From Gracilaria domingensis (lineage: Eukaryota > Rhodophyta > Florideophyceae > Gracilariales > Gracilariaceae), in the NCBI GenBank assembly GCA_022539475.1, contig VCMS01000025.1:248001-312000 (forward strand): a stretch of DNA of 64,000 nt. Reading direction: 5' to 3'. The stretch's first letter is position 1. The number at the start of each line of letters is the position of its first letter. Of the stretch, positions 36,153 through 50,700 are shown piece by piece. Below the pieces are notes generated by a model that was not told the origin of the DNA, did no database searches, and saw only the letters and a program-made list of their open reading frames with translations. Both the position numbers and the translations under genes were made by a program.

Positions 36153-38846
36153 TCATTTTGCGCGCTTATAGTGGTTTTCTCCATGATCTATTGTTTGTAA
36201 TGCACGTTGGATTGCCTGTCCTGGGGTTTGAATTTGAGAGGCTTGAACAGTAGCAAGAAGTGTTGCGGCTTGCTGATCGGCCGGTCGCTGGACGGGATCG
36301 GTACTAGCGATCTTTTGCTTCTTTGCAGGCCCTTTTCGTTCGAGACAAGAACGTTTTCGCTTTTTGCAAGCTTTGCCGAGACCGGCATTAGGGTTATTGA
36401 TAACCGGGTGTTTCTGCCGCTCGCTAGTGGCTGTGTTTGGGATTGTGAGCGCTGGCGACCGAGACGTCACTGGAAGATGTGTTGTCTGTCCGTTTGTATA
36501 CCGCCCTGAATTAAGTTGTTCTAAAGCATTGCGAAGATATTGCTTGAGGCTTTCAACGGCCACTTCACCGTACGTCTGCGCCACTCTGTGCATTTGATCA
36601 CAGAGGGCTTTACAATCGGAGTAGCTTGCGTACTAGGATAATTCATTCCCACTTTGAATTCTTCTACCTGATTCCTTTTGAGCAGAACGCACCGGAGTCG
36701 CATTGCAGCCTGCAGATGCGCTTGCAGAGAGGTTATTCGGAGCTTTTGTTTGCGTGTTCAGCCTTTGGTGGACCTCTTGATTGAGAAGATTCTGCCTTTC
36801 ACTGGAATCAGTCCCCATGTTCGCTCTCAGCTGAAGTATTTCTATAACTGGCCACTTCAGAGGATCTCGACAGCAGTACCTGTGCCAAAGATCCTCTATT
36901 CAAAATCGCATTGAAACTGCGTTGCGCACCTGAGGCCATCGGTCTCATACGTCATTGTATGTGACGAACAGGTGCGTGATATGACAGCAAGGGATGCCAG
37001 TCGCAGTGGTATCGCGACATGTGCAACCACCAACAATAGAGCTTGTATTCAAAGATGGCAGTTTTGCAAATAGATAGGTATTGTATGTCTCCGGGATTCG
37101 ATTGGGTTCATTGTAGGATCTCCGAATCGTAAACACGGGAAATGGTTGCTCAGAGGATATGTCAAGATCCTCCATATCTAGATGAAAGTTGAATGGGGCG
37201 TCTCGTGTCGGTAAGACGACTGCATCAACGACCTGAAAGTACGCTGAAAAACGAAAGCTTGACTGAAGGAACTTCTGTATACTATACGCCGTGTAGTTTT
37301 GGACGACGGGTGTGGAAGTTTCCATTGTCAATGGAAGTCCTGACAGGAGTAGCTTATTCCGGAGTGATGTGTCAATCATTGATGCTTTCTGATCCTGCTC
37401 CTCTTGCTGGCGCTCAGTGATCTTTCTCATCGTCAACGGTACATCTGCGAGGGGTACGTCATTAGATAGAACGTATTGGCGATATCGTGAATGTGACTAT
37501 TCAGAATAGCCGCTTCCCTGGAAGAAAAAGCGTCGCGGGAGGCTAACGTCTTTGTTGCATCGGATGAGCATTTCGGGGTTCTCATGTTATAAGAATTTAT
37601 ACCACCGAGGTAAAGACGCATTAAAGCTTGTGAAGAATCGTTGTTCGATCGCAGAGCGCTGTTGTTGAAATTGCTCCATCTTAGTACTCTGCCTCAGGTT
37701 GTGCAATGCGTTGCTCATATCTTCTCTCCAGTCCGTCCTACCAATCTTCTTGCACCAGCGCTCCGTGTTTGTGTTCTGGTTCTTATTTATGTGCCAGTCA
37801 TCTAAAGTAATAGACGACAGCGGAAACACCTGACGTAATGCCGCAATTAGTGCAGTGCACTGATCGATGGCGAAGGAGCTAGGGGAGATCTGCACGCAAT
37901 CCTTGAATCGCTCCAGGAACTAGACAAAACTTTCCATTGTCTCGTTCACAATATAACCCATGAAATATGTTCTTCAGTGTCCCGCGTTTTCTCTCCCATT
38001 TAACGAAATCAATGGGATATTGAAGCGATTCGCCACGGATTTGCAGTCAACTGACACACCTGGGACCATTCCGAAACGCTCATAATCCCTTCCCCACTTT
38101 TCCAAGCTTCATGTAACAAACTGCAACTCATTATTACCTCCTGTATCACAATAAACCTTGTTCCCTCGGTTCTGAGACTGAAGTAATAACAAATTCTGAT
38201 ACAATCGTGAGCATTCGTGTTGTTTTGGGTACCGCGTGTTGGATATATACTTTAGACGTTTCCTAAACAGGGTCTTGTCAATTTTCACATGAAATTTATC
38301 CTCGACTATGGCCAGTACAGTATTGTACCGAAGATGAAGACTGTGTCATAAGTGGAGCGCTTCGCGTCTCATCTGGGGTGACATCAGGGATCGAAACTGG
38401 GAGATCCGAGGAGCATGATTGTGAGAAGCCTTGGAAAAGTTCGGCGATAGAGTAAACTTGTTGTTCTCCGATGTAGACACCCTGACGCGGCGTAACGTAA
38501 ACATATACGGACATTTGTATTGCTCATTATGTAGTAAGGAGCACTGCAGGTATCCGCGAATTAAAACCTTCTTCCCCTCGTGCTCGGTATATTTCGAATC
38601 GCGAATGTAAAGTTTGTAGCCGAAGTTATCCACAATTTCCTGTAGATGCTGGAGAACCTCATACGAGCCGACAGCATCCATTTGGTCTAAGTATGCTGCA
38701 AACATTCTACGTACCAATTCTTCATCATCAGCGCAGTTCTCCAGCAATGTGCTTTCCTCTGATCCTCCATCTTCACTTGTGCTATTAGTTTCCTTCAGTG
38801 CCAATGATGCACGAGGCGGACTGTTTTCCGGAACTGCAGTGGACAT
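36153..38846 (-). pseudogene. Mutator-like transposase, interrupted by stops
   Basis: Reading from 38846, the N-terminal part has a FAR1/WRKY-GCM1-type zinc-finger region (GYLQCSLLHNEQYKCPYMF, then SKASHNHAP). The DDE core follows at about 37900-38300: first Asp in VSVDCKSVANRFNIPL, then NETMESFV, second Asp in SFAIDQCTAL, and FPLSSITLDDWHINKN. A SWIM zinc finger CTCRDTTATGIPCCHITH is at about 36990-37030. A basic C-terminal tail contains CKKRKRS. Stops interrupt the core in frame (TGA after RENAGH, TAG after NETMESFV), and frame shifts occur near 38340 and 37600. The protein would be about 900 residues and is not functional as it stands. Confidence 0.85.
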
Positions 38847-38895: not shown

Positions 38896-40614
38896 TTAGA
38901 AAGCACTTACGGATTTTGGTTTCGCACTGTTTTTCGTCTTCTCAACAGCCGTCATCTCAATGACTGAGCTGTCATCTGATAGATCAACTGCTATAACAGA
39001 ATTTAGAGCGCTGCGTTCTACTGATCCACAACGTTTCTCGTTGTCATCGATAGCAATTATCTCCAATTCTCGTCTAGGACCACAACTGTTCTTCGACCGC
39101 ATATATTCCCCATCATCTCCCAATGCTCTGGATAGCCAGCCATAGCGGTTGGGTGGGAGAGGAGGCAACTGTCCCTCCATAAAATCGTCGTCATCTGAAG
39201 GGGTGGTCTTCTTCAACTCAGGCGGTATGAAATGGACGAACGGCACTTGAAAACCTGTTGGACAACTGTTCTTAACCGCATTCTTCACGGACTTTCTGCG
39301 TTTGTCCTTACTACCCCGCTCATTGGGATATAGTCGCATATGATTATGCGAACCAGACCTTGTGACTGTCCATCCACTACCGTCACTTCGAGCCTTTGCC
39401 AAAAACGATGCTTTACAGCCAGTGCCTGGGGGCTTCTTCTTGTACTTAAGGCACCTCAGTCTTGCGTTGAGCCGATACCCCTTTGACGCTCTCACCGTCT
39501 TACAGAATTGCACTCCGTATGCATAGCCTTCATCCTCACAGAGACTGTAGACATAGCCAGGCAAGTCGTGGACATGTTTCTCTTCCTCCTGTGTCTCAAG
39601 AGAATATTTTGGAGCCCCCTTTTCTGTTCCCCCAGCTTGTGCTTTCCTCACCACAGCGCTACGCTTTTCCATCTCATGAATTTCTTCTGCACGAGACCTT
39701 TCTTCTGATCTCTTCTTTGCAGTCATGGTTATACTACTCAGTTTACTGTTCCCTTTATGCCTCGAGGCATAAGTTCGCTCTCGACGGCCAATGTGCTCCC
39801 CGTCTATAATAAATTCATCAGCCACAGTCATTCTGTGACAGACGCCAATAACCATTGATATCCTAGCCTCCGCACATGCCCATCTGTAACGTTCGGTGAG
39901 ATCAGCCGCATGTCCGGGGGCAAAAGTAGCCTCAGGAATTAATCCTCTAGTACGCGCGAAATGGGACATCATCCAAAGAACGTATGCCCCACAACTGAAC
40001 GAATCGGTCTGTTTTCTGTAGCCCAGCACGTCCAGCATATAGTTATCTGTCGGATAACTTCATGTAATTGCTTTTTGCATAGCACACTCTATTATGGCCG
40101 AAACTAAACAAATACAGCCGGATGGACACTCCCATTGTAAACTATCCCCCCAGCACAATCTCCATTCCTGGTCAGTAACTCGTTCCGCGAAGATAGCACC
40201 CCAGTGAACATTTCGAACGTTAATAGGAACGATGATCTTGCACACTTTTCCTGGACTGAGGTACAACTTTTCCATAAACTGGGATTTAAATCTGTCTACA
40301 ATTATCAGCTGCTCCGCAGGAAGTAATGACTCGAACGTAGCTGCGTTGTGTCCCATTCGTACTCCAGAATCGACAGAGACAAATACGACACCATTCATGG
40401 GCTCCAGTTCCTACATTCCAGCTTTGATGAGAGTGTTACAAAACCAGCTTCTTTTCTGGCAAGAACTGATAAGACTGGGGCCCGTTACTCCTTTCGAGTC
40501 AATAGCATTACGGTAAACCATGATAAGGTGGTACCACAACTTTCGTAATTCATTGAACCCCTTATTTGTTGCTCTATTGAATGCGATACTGGTATTCAAT
40601 TGCAGCCTCTTCAA
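38896..40614 (-). pseudogene. Ulp1-type (C48) cysteine protease with FAR1/GCM1-like zinc-finger region, element-encoded
   Basis: Reading from 40614 in one frame, KRSWFCNTLIKAGM is followed by a TAG, then the protease core: catalytic His in VRNVHWGAIFA, Asp in CWGDSLQ, a TGA at 40060-40062, and then Gln and Cys in KQTDSFSCGAYVLW. These are the His-Asp-Gln-Cys set of SUMO-specific proteases. After the protease comes a zinc-finger-like block (ARLRCLKYKKKPPGTGCKA, then SGSHNHMR) and a C-terminus with hydrophobic-acidic runs (IIAIDDNE, VIAVDLSDD) that resemble SUMO-interacting motifs. Two in-frame stops make it a pseudogene, but the C-terminal 380 codons (40038 to 38896) are uninterrupted. More sequence may lie upstream at 40574-40864. 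Confidence 0.82.
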
Positions 40615-41043
40615 AAAAGCATCGAAATATACTTTCTATACATATAATTTCAGAAGGCTTCAGTTTGCAATCTGGATTGTTTTCGCTGTCTGGGTCGCCA
40701 GGTTTCTTCACAGGACGAAACATTTCGTCCATTCTATCACCAGAGTCCTCATTTCGGGGATCAATGAATCCGAAGGCTGCGTGATCCAGAGGATCATCGG
40801 GGGGGTATCTGACGGAGAGGTCATTTGACTTTCGAAACGACAGCATTAAAAACGACAGTGCCACTGCAATCTATAAAGCAGTTTGAAAGATCTTCCGTAA
40901 ATCAATCGCGATAGACTGTGATTCGTTTTGCAATGACGCTGTCGAGAGCGATGGCCAAGACAAAACCTCGAAATGTACAGTAGCAGAAATAATGACGGTC
41001 TGCGCTTTGTACGAGGCTCCACAAGGCGCTACTGAGCCCACTC

Positions 41044-41308
41044 ACTCACGAGCAGCAGGTGCCACCAGTGGCGCCTACGGCGCCGCTGGTGGCACCTGTT
41101 GCGGGTGAGTGGTTTGTCACGCATCGAGTGGTGGCGGACTTGTAGTACCAATGTAGGCAAGAGAATCAGAGGAACCAGACACTTGCGGTGCTACGAGGCT
41201 GTGGAGGACGCTGGGAGGCTTTGAAGGCGTTACTCTGTCAGGTGAGGATCTACGGTAATTTGTTACATAGATTGAGAGGTTCTGTGGCACTTTTTGTACG
41301 TTCCTCAC
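41044..41308 (-). repeat. Right terminal inverted repeat of the Mutator-like element
   Basis: Its outer end at 41308 mirrors the left repeat. The inner end is a 67-bp near-perfect palindrome: arms 41044-41075 and 41079-41110, 28 of 32 positions paired, loop TAC. Confidence 0.88.
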
Positions 41309-41340
41309 AGTGCGTAGTATTTCCTAAGGCGCGTCGCGAC
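41300..41340 (-). repeat. Right copy of a 40-bp inverted repeat pair
   Basis: It is the reverse complement of 29413-29452 apart from one mismatch and a two-base gap. Its first nine bases overlap the outer tip of the Mutator-like element. Confidence 0.85.
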
Positions 41341-42060
41341 TGTCTCCGCGGTCTCTGATTGTGCTCACGGCACCGGGATGATCCAAAAGCCCCATGCCTC
41401 TACGGTGAGGAATTTTCCTCACCGATTTTTCAGCGTGAGGCCGGGTGAATTATGGCAATTGAAGGAACGAGAATGTATTTTTTATCAGCAATTACGGAAA
41501 GTGGACGACGGCGAAATAACTTAGAGGGATCTCTCTGTCTTCCTCACACTCCTTGCCTGGGCGTGCCGCCGTCGTCTGCACACTTGCTTCTTCAGCAAGC
41601 GTCTCTTCGCTTCACACGCCCACAAAGACTGTCATATCGTTCCTCACATCTCGGCTCAAAAGAACACAGTCTACTTCGTTTGAGCAATATTGCTTGTACC
41701 CGCGCTGTACCTTCTGCGTGTTGATCAGCGCCTCACAACGTTCAAACACTTTGAGCACATCTCCTTGCAATACCAGACTGCATTGACCTCTCCTTTGTTA
41801 AGCCCGCCCCACACTGTGTGCCACATCTAGCGGCTCATAATTCTCACCAAACACATTCTTTCTGTGCTCAAACGCCTTCTGGCGTTCATCGGCAAAACAT
41901 CAGTGCCCTGCTGTACGCATTTGTCTCCCACCAAGCCATACCACGCAAAACTTGCAGCGTCCTTTCCGGAAATCTCTGCCAAACAATAGCGCAATCGTCA
42001 GTAGACATAGTCTGTCTCGAACAAAACGTATTCTTTCATTGCTCTTAGATTTTTCTGAAC
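41341..42060. other. 5' region of the YR retroelement, with hairpin at 41403-41424
   Basis: It contains a perfect 10-bp-arm hairpin CGGTGAGGAA-TT-TTCCTCACCG (41403-41424), a short hairpin AACGCC-TTCT-GGCGTT near 41875, and a palindrome TTTCCGGAAA near 41967. This may be the left end of the retroelement. The frame at 41452-41724 resembles nothing. Confidence 0.4.
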
Positions 42061-43216
42061 ATGACAGAGACGAACAACATTACTATCGACAACATTGTGT
42101 CACAGCCATTTGCTTCTCTTTCAAATCTCTGAGACGCAGAGTTGCAAGCTCTTATTGACGCCGCGCCATCATCATCAAAAGCGAACGTTACGAGTACCAC
42201 GACTCAAAGTGGAAAGCTTGTCGCAGTATTGACAATCCAAAGCTTCCTGCAAAATTAACGTAACCAAAGTTCAGAACAGGAGCAAGCTATGCAAAAGCTG
42301 CTGCAGTCGTCAGTTGAAAAACTACAAGAACTCTCCGAATGAGATCCAGCCGCTCTTCTGGGCCTTATGGAAAAATGTAAGCAGTACGACCCAACGCTCC
42401 GTTCGTTCAATCCAGAGGCCTCTGCAAAAGATCTTCTTCTTCGAGGGCTTCATTGGAAGATCTACGCTCCACAACATCAGCCTCAAACCCCTGTCAATTC
42501 CACTCCTGTAAGAGGCACACCTTCTCCTCATATGAATCCATCCCAAAGCAAGCTTCCCCCTCTAGAAGCTTTCTTTGAAAACCCAAATCTACAACCAGGC
42601 CAACCACGCAAGAAGCAAAGGCGCACCATTGGAGGCATCCCAATCGTTGACGGAGCTGGAAAAAACACAGCAAACCGCCCCGTAGGCCTTGGTGAATATC
42701 GGGGAAAAGCATTTTCCCTCCAAAATCTTACAGTAACAGAGATATTGGGCGGGGCAGATTCTCCAAGCTCTACTAAGAAGAGGAATAAACCTCGAACTCG
42801 CAGTAGCCAACATCGAATGGACGCGTGGAGCAAACAACGAAGTCATGGCTTCGGAAGCAGAATCCTTCACATTCGGAAGAATTCTCCACCTCTCACTGCT
42901 CCAATTCAACTCCATGCAGGAGGCTCTGGAAACTTGCACATGGATGGAAGTAGCACTGCGCAGATTGTACGCCCTCATATTCGTATAATCATCCATACGA
43001 AACAGAAGCGCCACTCGCGCTCAAGCCTGGGGAGTTGCCGTCCCCATTCTGGAAGCTTATCCGTCTACCAACGCACTCCTGCCGGAAATTGAAAGCCGCC
43101 TAAACCGTCAGTTTGCAACGGAGGTGAAAACCATAAACGCTTTCAAGTCTTCCAAAAACAGAGGCCCGAACCATCGATCGCAAAACCAAAGAGGCACAGG
43201 CGCGAGCCAAAAAGGT
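42061..43216 (+). pseudogene. Gag-like ORF of the YR retroelement, broken
   Basis: The frame from the ATG at 42061 (MTETNNITIDNIVSQPF) has three early in-frame stops (the first TGA at 42130-42132). It then runs open from 42367 with a proline-rich part and KKQRR. Near 42790 the coherent reading moves to another frame (LELAVANIEWTRGANNEVM, then SFTFGRILHLSLLQFNSMQ), with one more stop near 42985, and ends in a basic N/Q/G-rich tail. The helix-rich middle with a basic tail is what gag proteins of this order look like; no zinc knuckle is seen. Confidence 0.6.
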
Positions 43217-43218
43217 GA

Positions 43219-45441
43219 GGGAAACAACGCCTGATCGAACCCAAACATTGTACTTTCCCTATCAATCTCGCTGCAGCCCTTCCTTCTGTCGCATCCAAAA
43301 TTCCCGAATCCATTGCAGAGAGTTTAAACTTTCTATATGGTGGCCCCCACATCTCCAATAAGTGCAACACCTACCTGGTATCGACCCGTGCTGCCATCTC
43401 CGTCTACACAAGAATCAAAAGCTGGCTCGCAAACCTCCCCAACGACGAAAAAGCTGATACACTATCCGAAGGCGCTGTGATAAACAGCGAAAGCGAGCAA
43501 TTCAACTCCAAATATTGCAGCACAGCCTCCTGGGACTCCATCTTCAAGGAATTTCTCACCGTCGTCGACCATCCGCATTTCGAACGCGGAGCCTTCACCC
43601 CGCTTTGCGCGGAAAGAATTGACCTTCCGGACCATCCCAACCCAAACGGATTTATATCCTGGTCTACGCTACTTCCCAACTCTCAGCAAGCGATATTCAC
43701 ATGGGAGAATCTTCTCCATCTCTTTCGCTCGAAGCACACTTTCCAGGGACCTTGTCGGAAACCATCGGTACTCGGATCCAACCATGAGTACAGTGCTGTG
43801 CTCCTCAAAGCGCACAAAGCTGGCATGCTGGCTTGGTCGGTCGTGGATGAAGAAGAGGCTGTCTATCGATCACTAGCAGATGCAGTAACCATGTACTCCT
43901 TTGCAGTGACCAAAGACTGCCATAGAGACCGACTAATCAGTTGGACGAAGCTTCAAAACGATATTCTGCCTGATCCCCCTCACACAGATCTCCCTTGTCC
44001 AGACATGTTTCACTGGTATAACATGGGCACCGGTAATCTCCACTCTTTCTTCTTCGATATCTCGAAAATGTTCCACAACACCCCCCTTCCTCCAGAAATG
44101 GCGAAGATATTTCCGCTGCAACCACTCCCTATTTCTCAGCTCTCCACAGAGCTCATACAAATCCTCTCCCAGACCATGAAGCTCCCAACAAACGCTCTCG
44201 CCCTTCTTCGTCCTCCCCAGCAGACATTGCCCATGGGATACAAATGGGCAGTCCACATCGCCCATAGCATTGCAGATACTATCATCAACTGCGCCTTTTC
44301 TCTCTTTCGACGTCACCCTTTCTGCAACGGAGAACCACGTCTTCTGCAACTTTCCAGGGGACCCAATATTACCTACCACGACCCAGGAGACGCTATACGT
44401 TTACATATTATCGACGACATAAATTTCATCTTCAAGGACTGGGACGCAAGAGAGATACACACTTTCCAATGGATATGCTACTCGCGTTTTCAATCCCAAC
44501 GCCTGCCAATCAAAGCCAGCAAATCATCCCCACTCGGAACGTTCTGCAGTACCATAGTTCCTTTCATCGGATGGCGAATCAATCTCCAGCAAAAGATCGC
44601 TTTCTCAGACCCACAGAAAACTCTGGTTACACAGCGCAGGGCGTTTTCAATTGAAAAACACGAACAACTCTTCCTCTCCCTTGCCGAATCCTTAGCAGGA
44701 AAGCTAACATGGGCAGCACTTGGCAACCGGCCGCTCTTAGCCGTTCTCCTCAACACATATCGGTTTATCAAAGCCAGCAAGCACAACGATCCTCCCGCAT
44801 CACTTCAGTCTCGCGCTCAGGCTGAACTTCATAGATTAGCACACCTTCTCCCGCTTTCTGTCGTACAAATGAACAGCCAAATCGCACCCATTGTGCTTTG
44901 TTTTGATGCGTCCCTCGACGCAGGTGCTCTAGTGTACCACGAATCAACTTCATTACAGCTTGAGCGCCTGCTTTGTTCGTGGTACAAAGAACCCTCTGGA
45001 CTACACAGAGAATGCATCAAGCGTTATGTCGAAGATAAACCATGTAAAACAGCTTTCGTGCACAGATGGCACAAAGAGGACCATATAAACGTTCTCGAAG
45101 CTACAACAGCCTACCTTAGCCTCGAATGGCTAGCGTTCAGGAGAGTCCAGCATTCATGGTTCATTATTTTTGGCGACTCAATGGTTACAATTCAGGCCCT
45201 CAAAAGGGGAGATCATCTAGTCCAGCCATCGCCCCCCCATGCCGACGAATCGGAGGGATCTGTCTTGCGCACGACTTACATCCTCTCTTCTTCCACATCC
45301 CTTCTGCCCTTAACCCCGCCGACGACCCATCCCGATCTTATTTCAACTAGCGCACGTCCTCACCACCCAGCGCGGGAACCAAAGTCGAAATGGAAAAGGT
45401 TCGCAGCGTCACGCCCGCCGGACGACTCCTGTTCAAGCTAA
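43219..45441 (+). pseudogene. Reverse transcriptase-RNase H of the YR retroelement, frame break in RNase H
   Basis: The frame is open from just after the TGA at 43214-43216 to 45441. It has reverse-transcriptase blocks: DISKMFHNTPLPPE (palm Asp), LPMGYKWAVHIAHS, and the catalytic box IIDDINFIF in place of YxDD. RNase H begins PIVLCFDASLDAGALVYH and continues to FGDSMVTIQALKRG. The expected ending FHIPSALNPADDPSR lies in another frame (to 45350), so a frame shift falls at about 45210-45240 and the listed C-terminus is out of frame. This copy is probably inactive for reverse transcription. Confidence 0.85.
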
Positions 45442-45684
45442 GAATGCAGCACACACCCGGCGCCCGCCGGACCCGAACGACAGTGACCCCCATCAGGGCA
45501 TCTGTTTTACAGAATGAGAACAAAAGGTGGCGCCTTCGCCAATCGACATCTCGTCAAAAGATTCTGCGCACCTCGCGCGACCAGCACGGCAACCCAGTCG
45601 TCACGTGCTCACTACTAGAAGCCCCCTTCCTTTGAACCAATCACCTCACAAGGACCTTACCACACAGCGCTACCGAAGCAATTG

Positions 45685-46617
45685 ATGCATGCTTCGTTCC
45701 CTAAGAAGCTTGTAAATCTGCGCTTCTCGTTCATATCCTTTCTGAACAAGCATCTCCTCTTGCGAAACACGCTCAAGCCTGTCAGCCGTGCTAGATATAA
45801 CGAAGCACTGCAGAGCTTTCAGAGCGTTTTGCCTGTCGTACCGCCTTCCATCACGGATCTGGACGAAATGCTACTTCATTTCATCGAAGAGACTTTTGAT
45901 GTTTGCAATGCTCGTGGGCAAAGACAGAAAATGTCTAACTTGATTTGTGCAATACACCTTGTAGCACCTGCTACAAAAAAGAAACTCTATCTCTCGAGCA
46001 GAGCACTTGAAGGCTGGGACAACGCCAGACGTTCTCAATCATCAGTTCCTATTACAAAGCAGTTTGCCTTTGTCATTGCTGGTTGGCTCATAGCAAACAA
46101 AGAGTTTTCAGTGGCCGTTGCTCTCCTTGTTGCATGGAGTGGGTACTTGCGTGCTAGTGAGGTTCTACCTTTGTCACGGAGCCTTATTGCGCTTCCGGGA
46201 GACCCACGAATATGGACGTACAAGGATGGAACTGCTGGTGTGTGCATTAAGGACACGAAAACTGGTCCTTTTCAGTTCGTGCCGATATGCAAATCAGAAG
46301 CCGTAACTGCGCTCAAAGTCTTGAAAACAAACTCAGGTTACCCACTGTCTGATGAAATTAAGGTCTTCAACCTTTCGTATGCAACCTATAGCAAAAAGAT
46401 AAGTCTTGCTTGCAAGAAGCTCGGTATGCATCAGTTTCGAATCACTACGCACTCCGCCAGGATAGGTGGTGCATTGCATGACTACATTATTGGAATGTCT
46501 GCCGAAACATTTTCTATTACAGGAAGATGGAAATCGTTGTCGTCGTTGCGACACTATTTGACAAATGGAAGAGCCTGGAAAATGAAGCTTAAGGTTACTA
46601 CTGAAACAGAAGCTTAA
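45685..46617 (+). CDS. Tyrosine recombinase of the YR retroelement, intact frame
   Basis: The 310-residue frame from the ATG at 45685 has an N-terminal SAM-like core-binding region (NTLKPVSRARYNEALQSF) and a catalytic domain. The first catalytic Arg is in WSGYLRASEVLPL. The second box is THSARIGGALHDY (His-x-x-Arg), and then GRWKSLSSLRHYL carries the Trp/His position and the nucleophile Tyr. In this retroelement order the enzyme inserts a circular cDNA by site-specific recombination and leaves no target duplication. No disabling change is visible, unlike the upstream gag and RT genes. Confidence 0.88.
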   Translation: MHASFPKKLVNLRFSFISFLNKHLLLRNTLKPVSRARYNEALQSFQSVLPVVPPSITDLDEMLLHFIEETFDVCNARGQRQKMSNLICAIHLVAPATKKKLYLSSRALEGWDNARRSQSSVPITKQFAFVIAGWLIANKEFSVAVALLVAWSGYLRASEVLPLSRSLIALPGDPRIWTYKDGTAGVCIKDTKTGPFQFVPICKSEAVTALKVLKTNSGYPLSDEIKVFNLSYATYSKKISLACKKLGMHQFRITTHSARIGGALHDYIIGMSAETFSITGRWKSLSSLRHYLTNGRAWKMKLKVTTETEA

Positions 46618-46718
46618 TTAAAAAAATACTCGTCTCTTTTGGAGAAGGCCTGTTCTCATTCTACGTATCACAGAACTTGACTAAGTTTGTTTACTTCTAT
46701 ACTGGGTTGGGTAATTCT

Positions 46719-47094
46719 TCTTCTGTCTTGTACAGAAGAGCAGTGAAAACTCTTCACTGGATTGCATTGATTCAATGCAAAGTCAGCCTCTAGGCTGACA
46801 GAACTCAAAACCGAAAGATTCAAACTTGTTTGAATGTTCTGGCCACTGCAAGTGTGCAAAGTAAAAGTCCCATTTCCGCCAGCCTCGGCTCCGCGGTCCC
46901 ACTGTACGGTGATGCTCACCGTAGCACGCTGAACTCACCGAAACACCCCCCCTGCGGTACGAGATCAAAGTCGCAGATTTTCTCTTCACTACCACACAAA
47001 TGTTGAGTATTGCAAGACGTTTGTGATCCTTTTTCACTATACCGAATGAAAAGTGTGGCATTGGCTCGAAAAGTAGACACTTTTGTGCCGAGCC
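46719..47094. repeat. Array of consecutive perfect hairpins behind the YR retroelement
   Basis: Five stems follow each other almost without gaps: 46719-46726/46732-46739 (8 bp), 46741-46747/46753-46759 (7 bp), 46762-46770/46772-46780 (9 bp), 46782-46789/46792-46799 (8 bp), and 46818-46825/46828-46835 (8 bp, inside an outer stem 46800-46804/46836-46840). Further on are 46905-46912/46916-46923 (8 bp) and 47063-47068/47089-47094 enclosing 47069-47074/47079-47084. All arms are exact complements. Sequences differ between stems, so this is not a tandem repeat. It may be the structured end of the retroelement or a structured RNA. Confidence 0.8.
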
Positions 47095-47712
47095 CATACA
47101 GTCAGTGACGGGAGGTGGTTTTTATCTGCTTCCAAGCATTCAGAAAATTTTCGCAACTGGAAGACATCTAATAAAAACTATTACACTTGTAATGCATGAC
47201 CCCGTCAGTCAATCTCAAATGTAGGTTTTAGAAGCTGTCCGCTAACATTCCAAGCAGAACAAGAGAATTGATCGCACAAGAAACGAATCCACCAACACAT
47301 AACCAGTGGACTGATCTCTTTAAGTTTTGCCGCTCTCTGCAAATCGTTGCAAAACATGCAACCACTTCCTCTTTTCCATTGACCAAACTTTCATCTTCGA
47401 CTCTGAAGTACCTCTCTTATACTGACGTAATTTTGAAGCAAATTCGATATCCCTTTCTGCATTTGTTCCAACTTCAATATGTCTCAGTCGCATTCTGAGC
47501 AACGTTCAAGTTAATTTGATAGAATTGAAGAAAGTTGAAGTTCTGGGTCCAAACTTGAACTATTAAAATCACCTTCTGTCCGTGTTATAGAATTTATGAT
47601 AAGCTCCGAAAAAGATACGTCATGTGAAGGAAAGGAATCTAAATCACACTAAACAGGACAAAAGGTCAAGCGATGCTCATTATGTTACGGTTCAAAAATA
47701 CCAGATGAGAAA
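47095..47712. other. AT-rich spacer
   Basis: This 618-base stretch shows no supported gene, and the short frames on both strands are unremarkable. Confidence 0.5.
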
Positions 47713-50700
47713 ATGAGAATCATATCTTTAAAGCAAATAAAACCTTTCAAAAGCTTTCAAATCGAATTCACGGATATGAGTTACAAACCTTTTCAGTCTC
47801 TCCTTCAAGAAAAACTAGATTCAAATCAAAGAAGCCACTATAATTTTTTTGCTATTTCCCACGAATGTCGTCACGATTTTAAGATCATGTTGCTTTCCTT
47901 TAATGGTAGTTCGGACAACTCTGGTTTTTTTTCTACTTTTTCAACACCGGAGAGGTCACTGCATGATGTTCAAATTGCGACATCAAGTTATTGCGATCGT
48001 CTTCGTCGCCATGCCGAATCCAAGAACAACACCGAAGATCTGTGTAGGGCATGTTTCTTTTCAAGCAAAGGAAGTACGAAATGTTCAATTCCTGCTCTAC
48101 CTTTGTATCATTCTTCTAGGTTGGGCTCTCCAGAAAATAAACATTTGCAAAAGCAATGGATTACAACTTTCTGCAAGAGAAACTCACTGAAAATTGGCGA
48201 TGCACGCCAGATATGTGACACGGCGCTTGAAAGTTATTTCTGCACTGCCCATACTTCAAATATGTAGAATGCTCTTTCAGAAGCACGAGAATTGGCTAAA
48301 ACTTGTTCTGTTTGTCAGGGCACAATAATTACTAGACAGAAACGGCGTGTGGTCAAATTTGATTGGAAGCGTTTTATGGTTGATGAATCAGTCATGAGCA
48401 TGGTAGAGGATTCTATTGCTGTTTACACAGAAAACTGTGTTCGCCCTGCTGACATACGTCAGCTGTGTGATGGATGTCGCCCAGTCATACTGCGCCAGGT
48501 GGACATGGAAGATGTACGCCCAACGCTTCGCGTGAATTTCAGAAGTGGACCAACGTCGAATGCAGCGGTATATACTTCTGACAGAGGCTTTGATCATGGG
48601 CCTACTCCAAATAGTATAAAGGCTACCATTCGATATGTTCGTGATCTTCTTTGGGACAAGAAAAAGAAAACACTCGTCGTTTTCCTCGCTGATGCGCAAG
48701 CGTTTTACAACAAGTACTGCGGCCTTTCTAACGAACAAAATCACAGAATTGCCGACATCAGGACATTGAAGAAGTACATTTGCCCGTCGCTTGCTGCTAC
48801 CGATATTTTGCCAAGAGTTGCATCCAGAAAGATTGGAACAGTTTTCTATTGTGTACAGTCATTTGGTCTCGTTGCAGCAGATGCTAAAGCGTGTAGAAGT
48901 GAAGAGGTTACTCTCCTTCTGGGAGATCAATTTCAGATGTGGCAAGAACTCTCCGGAGTTTTCATGAGATTTCAGGGTCTGATACGAGCCTTATCATGGA
49001 GCCTGTCTTTCTTTATTAAGCTTGTTCCGAAAAAGCTTTGGCACTGTGAGATGATCGCCAACGATCCCCGTTGGCTGTTGAGAAGAGCAAAGTCACACGC
49101 AAGAATACTCGGTGAAGCCTATTACCAGCAGTGGTCATTTGATCCTACTGAGGTTCGTGATGACATAGAGAGACCATGCCACAGAGTGAACTGGCGTTAC
49201 CAATACGAACAATGCAAAGAATTGAGGCCACAATTCTTTGCTACTCGAACGGGAGAGCCAGGGGACCGCTAACGACCGCTGTGAACATCGCCGCTTGTGG
49301 GCAATCTAATAAAAGCTTCATGGACATTCTGTGCCGTGTCGGTGTCACAGCTTTCTATCAAACGGTTCACAGGTGGAGAGTTGGTGAAATAGAACACCGC
49401 CAGGCTGTCGGACCCTTTTCGACCCTGAATGAAGATTGTTTGCTTGTCGTGGGAATCGAGAACATAAACATTCAATCACGCAATCAACTGGCTGTTTTAA
49501 GTTCACGTTACGATGGGTACGATGAATTGACAAAACAGACACTGAATCCATCACTGAAGTTCAACTTCAGAGAGGATTTTATGGTCAGTAATATCGAAGA
49601 TAGGCTTCCTCTTGTTATGGATATCTCAAATGTTCGGGGCTTAAGACAAAACCGAGAATCATACATCGCAGAAAATTTTCCGGACAAGACTGATCCAGAT
49701 ACTCATGGTTTTCGCTACCTTGTTTTCGGTTTGGCAATATGAAACAAACGCTACCTTACTTCCGATGACCCCGAGGCACAACGACGTTCTCGCTCAGTTC
49801 TGCTGAGGTCTCTTAAAGGTCGTTCCAATGGGAAGGCTAGGGTAGAGTACGTTGACATTTCGCGCTGCAATTCCAACAGTATCATGGAGATAATCGATCG
49901 TTTGGAAAGTATTGAGTGCGTTTATAACCCGCGAGACCTCCGTAGGACTGGAGAAGACTATATCGTGGTAGTTGTGCACGGATATCAGCCGATCTTCAAA
50001 ATGCTTTGGAAACTGTGGTTAGCTCGTATGTGTCTTGCATTCAATGTGATGCTCCACGCGTCGTTGATCCCGACAAAGAAAATTTATGTCGGTGGATGGT
50101 GCCACTGCCAGGCGGCTTTCATATAGACAAAAAAGGTTTAATTTCCTTGGTGAAAGAATTTCTTGCGGGAAGTAGTATAGAAGAATTACTACAGTTTTCT
50201 GGACTCTCTCCTTCTGTTCAAAAGGTGTTCCATTCTTTTGGTCATTACCGTTCAAACAGAAGGTTTCTGTCCCAAGCTATGGTAGCTATGATCCTACGTT
50301 TGGATGAATCTTTGCTCTCAATGTCATCGGAGTACTCTAAACTACGAGACCAGTGCCTAACGCTCATAGAGGAAGAAGAAAGTTATGCTCAGCTGCCCAC
50401 TACGATGAATTCTGTGCAAAGAATCTGTGAGCACCAGAAAGAGTTGCCAAAAGAATGCAAGCTACAACTCGCTCCAACTCTTTCTCCGTTCACCCTCAGA
50501 GTCGGTAGATTATTTGTCGAGCAAGTATACTCCAAGGCACAGACGATGCCTAACAGGGATTTGTATGGCCGCTTCCAGATCTTGGAGCTTCTAGTACCGT
50601 GGATTGGATTTAGCACTTTGTCCAGAACAGGGCAGACAATGTTGGTGGACATATTTTGTTTTCGTGGGTTTGATGCACTGGACAAATAAGATAGGATACC

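Follow-up and report, generated by a model that had tools for sequence, protein, structure and literature searches.

A hairpin array downstream of a tyrosine recombinase gene in Gracilaria domingensis forms the B repeat of a split-direct-repeat retrotransposon

The window (the whole stretch of 64,000 nucleotides that was analyzed, from a eukaryotic assembly of 78 Mb in 680 contigs) contains a tyrosine recombinase (YR) retrotransposon with the following layout:

41453..46866, plus strand: whole element, a YR retrotransposon in a single-B copy (5414 nt; 5' edge accurate to one base)
41453..41514, plus strand: 5' end, the part of A1 that can be aligned to the A1 of locus L034 (90%; A is ∼162 nt in L034)
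42343..43092, plus strand: gag-like open frame, named by its position only (no Pfam match)
43219..45441, plus strand: putative reverse transcriptase (RT)/RNase H (RH) open frame (weak profile and Foldseek matches)
45619..46617, plus strand: tyrosine recombinase open frame (LRASE...HSARIG...GRW...Y; Cre-like model)
46704..46711, plus strand: GGGTTGGG tract at the 5' boundary of B, a tract that recurs in structured copies
46709..46866, plus strand: B repeat, the hairpin module, recognized from B1/B2 pairs in relatives (5' boundary approximate)
46836..46866, plus strand: terminal motif GTTCTGG...AGTAAAA, the element end, from motif recurrence and an empty site

Pfam gave no match for the RT and YR proteins of the window, and support for both came through their relatives. 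When the RT frame was aligned with 8 relatives, RVT_1 was matched in 3 of the 9 members (best E value, 0.002) and DNA_pol_viral_C in 2 of the 9. A low-confidence structure model (pLDDT 46.9) led Foldseek to caulimoviral (CaMV) and foamy-viral RTs (best E value, 5e-4), and a search of PDB sequences with the RT profile returned a response regulator as its best match (E value, 0.015) and no RT. These matches point weakly to an RT/RNase H, a less well supported identification than that of the recombinase. For its part, the predicted YR structure matched Cre (best E value, 6e-8) and also the integron integrase 2a3v (E value, 7e-5), which ranked 50th, after Cre and others; the recombinase of one relative (L019) scored above the cut-off of PF00589, and the pattern R...HSARIG...GRW...Y was common to six aligned recombinase copies. 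Searching the genome for the recombinase gave at least 106 matches, a lower bound counted in gene pieces. No Pfam match to a methyltransferase domain was found in the RT, YR, and gag-like frames of the window, nor one to a Gag zinc finger in the gag-like frame (P0003).

Within B, the following hairpins and one further strand of a predicted helix were located:

46719..46739, plus strand: hairpin 1 (8 bp, loop of 5), three pairs of which are changed on both sides in relatives
46741..46759, plus strand: hairpin 2 (7 bp, loop of 5)
46762..46780, plus strand: hairpin 3 (8 bp, loop of 3), one pair of which is changed on both sides in relatives
46782..46799, plus strand: hairpin 4 (7 bp, loop of 4), with stem letters largely retained and a variable loop
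46803..46813, plus strand: proposed GGGTTGGGT partner, in a predicted closing helix that would give a multi-branched fold
46818..46835, plus strand: hairpin 5 (7 bp with a loop of 4, or 8 bp with a loop of 2)

A preliminary description of this DNA had placed five perfect hairpins of mutually unrelated sequence just 3' of the recombinase gene, and this was borne out. Thus, beyond the YR stop codon (46615-46617), five perfect stems of 7 to 8 bp lie within 125 nt (46719-46835), and no two of the five share their stem sequence. This is the only place in the whole window with five such stems in 125 nt; dinucleotide shuffles of the whole window (n = 40) reached a maximum of three, and local shuffles of 46600-47120 (n = 2000) a maximum of two. 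In total, the window contains 46 such stems (0.72 per kb), compared with a mean of 21.9 in the 40 shuffles. The proposal that 46600-47120 folds better than its dinucleotide shuffles also withstood the comparison (z of -3.57, with 0 of 100 shuffles as low), and z was -5.28 for 46690-46866 (0 of 300 shuffles as low) and -4.96 for 46719-46840. The stem said to enclose hairpin 5 (CAGAAC/GTTCTG) is present in the window but was left uncounted, because relatives such as L010 retain GTTCTG and lack CAGAAC. Minimum-energy folds included the closing helix in the window copy (L009) and, with other letters, in L026, L012 B1, L014, L051, and L017, while other copies were predicted to fold differently.

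Searches against known RNAs gave little. Rfam returned 6 matches at E values up to 1 for window positions 40000-50000 (five micro-RNA and one lncRNA) and 2 micro-RNA matches for 18 of the 92 loci, all below the gathering scores; a known Rfam family was dropped as the identity of the array, since matches were subthreshold throughout. Searches for tRNA, tmRNA, and tandem repeats found none at the array locus.

The ends of the element were read from an empty site and from related copies. Locus L005 matches the sequence obtained when the two flanks of the window element are joined (83% over 137 columns) and reads GGTGAATT-C-GTCCCATTT, while the window reads GGTGAATTA, the element, and then GTCCCATTT; by comparison with this one empty site, the window element lacks a target-site duplication. 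On the 5' side, the start of the window A1 matches the A2 starts of L034 and L035. As the empty site fixes the element end at 46866, the array is the 3' end of the element, and the stems at 46905-46923 and 47063-47094, which had been counted as its continuation, belong to the flank. This flank is somewhat folded too (46867-47094 alone: z of -2.19, 6 of 300 shuffles as low).

The window contains two CGGTGA..TCACCG palindromes (0 in 100 shuffles), one on each side of the element (41403-41424 and 46907-46921). They are part of a host repeat family that the element entered, and the stem at 46905-46923 is included in it. In L005, an element-free locus, CGGTGA..TCACCG occurs twice (1541-1573). Two other features were observed upstream of the element. 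At ∼340 nt from it there is a 69-nt near-perfect palindrome (41043-41111; 33-nt arms, 88%, and a 3-nt center), for which Rfam gave only subthreshold micro-RNA matches, and on the minus strand, at 36945-37496, there is a frame with a weak subthreshold SWIM zinc-finger match, which we take to be possibly a piece of a MULE-type DNA transposon.

The repeat structure became apparent in relatives. Family copies were compared over at least 7 kb (the window, L033, L034, L035, and L036; n = 5). L034 contains all four repeats, A1, B1, A2, and B2, with identities of 86% over 162 nt for A and of 88% over 158 nt for B, L035 has the layout B1-A2-B2, and the window copy, L033, and L036 have a single B each. 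Among 20 recombinase loci with 1.1 to 1.5 kb of downstream sequence, B1/B2 direct repeats were found in 4, namely, L011 and L012 (the copies that lie in L034 and L035, respectively), L015, and L020; the identity between B1 and B2 was 91% over 151 nt in L035, 93% over 165 nt in L015, and 100% over 197 nt in L020. In each of these loci the repeated unit spans the hairpin region, and therefore the array is the B repeat. With the empty site, these split direct repeats support the earlier suggestion that the array is the structured terminus of a DIRS-order element.

In the four loci, B1 and B2 start inside or adjoining a G-tract. At B1 the tract is intact in L012 and L020 and altered in L011 and L015. 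In front of B2, GGGTT is absent from all four loci, and the sequence there is C-rich in two of them (L011 and L012), not C-rich in L015, and differently G-rich in L020. Among loci L062 to L092, 15 of 31 lack a same-strand YR match in the 1.5 kb upstream, and at least 7 of these 15, though not all, show a C-rich tract before B (L066, L067, L068, L072, L085, L089, and L090). Such copies might fit A2-B2 remnants left after loss of the body of the element. Two further observations concern single loci: in L066 (C33), hairpin 1 of family III occurs twice in tandem within the B repeat, and in L020 the A2 between B1 and B2 contains the sequence TATATAAG, a possible promoter.

Structure in B is conserved while the sequence changes. 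In family III (15 sequences, 13 of them distinct, with L070, C369, and C370 left out), 93.2% of 249 cells in two hairpins were paired and 13 of 20 pairs were changed on both sides. The covariation was 0.492, compared with 0.227 ± 0.023 in shuffled and at most 0.129 in slid alignments; the number of further pair types was less striking, being matched by 26 of 500 shuffles. In family IX (11 of 18 sequences used, from a larger number of genome matches), 90.0% of 330 cells were paired and 12 of 30 pairs were changed on both sides, with further pair types matched by 106 of 500 shuffles. Its covariation was 0.309, compared with 0.197 ± 0.017 shuffled and at most 0.141 slid, a structure predicted from the tested alignment itself being favored over the slid versions by construction. 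In both controls by shuffling, relatedness was left in place. In family I, that of the window (8 sequences), 80.1% of 287 cells were paired versus 30 to 38% when slid, and the clear two-sided changes affected three pairs in hairpin 1 and one in hairpin 3; a fifth, in hairpin 5, depended on the alignment. Hairpin 5 appears broken in the family I alignment, which we take as an alignment shift around the longer loop of the relatives, because minimum-energy folds retain this hairpin in most family I copies. The two-sided changes support the earlier view that structure was selected and that the array did not arise by tandem duplication, and the compensation proposed there held in the relatives by pair counts with shuffled and slid controls, used in place of R-scape.

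All the copies compared come from one genome. When 160-nt segments were folded at different distances from the YR match in 38 copies, those starting at +100 gave a mean z of -1.49, with 15 of 38 below -2, compared with 6 and 8 of 38 at the +0 and +200 starts; mean z at the other eleven starts ranged from -0.68 to +0.45. When each copy was represented by a single 240-nt segment, 22 of the 38 fell below -2 on at least one strand. These 22, together with L011 and L054, added by hand since their relatives carry the array, form a structured set of 24 copies. Among these 24, 19 contain a GGGTTGGG-type tract, where shuffles average 1.0 and do not exceed 4, and 16 contain G[TC]TCTGG, for which the shuffle mean and maximum are again 1.0 and 4. 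Neither pattern occurs in any of the 14 others (shuffle means of 0.1 for the tract and 0.4 for G[TC]TCTGG), and both were defined post hoc from the sequences themselves. The same layout thus recurs across families with different stem letters: a G-tract, hairpins, GTTCTGG, and a TAAAA-like end.

Some array-bearing copies folded poorly on the plus strand (z of +0.14 for L011 B1, -0.34 for L054, -0.99 for L015, -1.15 for L052, -1.67 for L051, and -1.69 for L014). Of six A segments, five had a plus-strand z above -2, although that of L034 A1 reached -2.63 on the minus strand. The window A1 (41453-41614) folded well (-2.52 plus, -3.72 minus), and the structure may therefore not be specific to B.

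A recombinase tree of 20 copies grouped the array-less L021, L023, L024, and L025 at a support of 1.0, with an attachment that depends on the root. In L024 the YR precedes the gag-like frame, and the stretch behind its YR is therefore no element end. A 203-nt A-like repeat recurs in this locus, and the 146-nt stretch behind its second copy ends in AATAAAA and contains hairpins of 6 and 9 bp (z of -1.66, 17 of 300 shuffles as low). With the gene order read in one (L024) of the 14 array-less copies, it is suggestive that the array tracks the end of the element rather than the gene for the recombinase. L103, considered as proof of a structured end in the YR-first clade, was insufficient.

The acting strand was approached through G-U pairs, which were forbidden in the structure prediction, and departures from the majority Watson-Crick pairs were counted. 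G-U exceeded A-C departures by 64 to 38 cells (16:11 in family I, 15:7 in III, and 33:20 in IX) and by 29 to 15 columns (sign test, P = 0.049, for columns that are not independent). This excess leans mildly to the plus strand. Folding energy was similar on both strands in 22 copies (mean z of -2.99 on the plus strand, which folded better in 11 of the 22, and of -3.06 on the minus strand), and no general preference for one strand emerged from it.

The element is a YR retrotransposon with split direct repeats, of the PAT/Ngaro/VIPER type, as it has the YR, an RT/RH (weakly supported), and, in relatives of the window copy, the repeats and lacks a target-site duplication. Elements of this type insert without target-site duplication, as the window element did. 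In the accessible parts of two accounts, the A1/B1-A2-B2 split direct repeats are given as a hallmark of Ngaro-, PAT-, and VIPER-like elements; these elements share with the family described here the RT/RH and YR genes and the order A1-internal-B1-A2-B2, and the model of their reverse transcription anneals portions of the repeats (PMC6681497, PMC9210276). DIRS1-like elements, according to the available portion of another source, use a 3-bp junction for integration and leave no target duplications; they too are YR retrotransposons, and the AAN-type 3-bp junction of DIRS1 resembles the TAAAA end found here (PMC3266345). In contrast, that group should have inverted terminal repeats and an internal complementary region, neither of which was found here: no inverted repeat joined the element ends or interior (seed of 11; alignment E value up to 0.01), the sole inverted pair within the element at seed 11 being one of 14 nt (46100/46741).

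The array is thus shown, by its position and by the repeats of its relatives, to be B in a split-direct-repeat YR retrotransposon with the order A1-gag-RT/RH-YR-B1-A2-B2, of which the window copy has a single B. B is a compact multi-hairpin domain of ∼160 nt, with the G-tract at its 5' boundary, short stems, and a terminal motif that ends in a TAAAA-like run at the recombination junction; in some copies the G-tract is predicted to pair with a CCCAA-like stretch in a closing helix. On balance, we favor the reading that the plus-sense fold of B is an end signal for joining. Concerning the strand that acts, its binding partner, and the replication step, we infer the following. The plus-sense strand would fold, most likely as genomic RNA or else as plus-strand DNA copied from RNA. 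The RT or Gag of the element may then recognize the fold as an end signal, and the fold would present the B/A junction for strand transfer and circle formation; the recombinase would then act at the B/A junction to insert the circle. Counted in favor of a plus-sense end module were the peak of fold strength at +100, the coincidence of array and B, the two-sided changes, and the G-U lean, as well as the YR-first order of L024 with a weak fold behind its second A-like repeat. Counted against it were the equal strand z, the poor folds of some array-bearing copies, the value of -1.66 in L024, and the folded A1.

More tentatively, we regard B as a structured RNA that would act in cis, in which a GGGTT-GGG boundary would mark the start of synthesis or transfer and the rapidly evolving hairpins would position the B/A junction; the GGGTT half of this boundary stands before B1 and is absent before B2. 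A purine tract precedes the 3' LTR, and the G-tract at the B1 boundary recalls it. A folded 3' RNA used in priming or circularization, as had been suggested at the outset, is still a possible, unproven candidate.

Of the other explanations, an ordinary 3' untranslated region survives best, albeit as an unlikely one: the fold would stabilize the RNA or set its 3' end, with no special role in circularization. The array indeed immediately follows the final gene of the window copy and closes the element, but the B1/B2 duplication and the G-tract at or adjoining the repeat boundary suggest a link with replication.

The stems might instead form in single-stranded cDNA and be read by the recombinase or a host factor, as in integrons, where attC is a folded site beside the crossover of a tyrosine recombinase and the integrase recognizes the folded strand. 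The near-perfect Watson-Crick stems, with z equal on both strands, the adjoining recombination junction, and the match of the YR model to an integron integrase (behind Cre and others) would all agree with such a site. We nevertheless consider it improbable, given the mild plus-strand G-U lean and the absence of a common stem sequence or repeated core site; unlike attC, several unrelated short stems occur here in a retrotransposon, and reading of the fold by its recombinase is hypothetical.

Template switching at quasi-palindromes can make or perfect hairpins, so that RT could have produced two-sided changes without selection. This mutational origin would suit the unusual perfection of the stems, the joint change of neighboring pairs (three adjacent ones in hairpin 1), the lack of strand preference in z, and the good fold of the window A1. 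It seems to us quite doubtful, however, as motifs recur at both ends of the module, the outer helix of family IX has no two-sided changes while the helix inside it has them in 4 of 4 pairs, and most A segments, copied by the same enzyme, lack a low plus-strand z, the window A1 and the minus strand of L034 A1 being the low ones. Finally, recombinase-binding palindromes in duplex DNA, another early suggestion, are very improbable, since, even with a junction nearby and each stem a palindrome, the stems share no sequence and it is the terminal motif and G-tract that recur between families.

The split direct repeats are already known, and the structure-conserved end module in B appears to be new, in that no description of hairpin arrays in B repeats was found in the open-access literature searched. 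Such an array goes unmentioned for split-repeat elements in the accessible parts of five sources (PMC6681497, PMC4157794, PMC9210276, PMC3266345, PMC8969392). The Helitron 3' hairpin is also a terminal hairpin in a mobile element (PMC8969392), but canonical Helitrons have one hairpin, whereas many stems and a YR retrotransposon are found here.

In the accessible text of two sources, the step from RNA to integrable circle in split-repeat YR elements is explained by models deduced from how the repeats are arranged (PMC6681497, PMC3266345). A conserved folded module coextensive with one repeat offers a physical handle on this circle-forming step, and the hairpin module provides a signature by which to find element ends that escape comparison by sequence similarity. 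If B is indeed a cis-acting RNA, the DIRS order would gain a recognizable packaging or priming signal, one for which other lineages could be screened.
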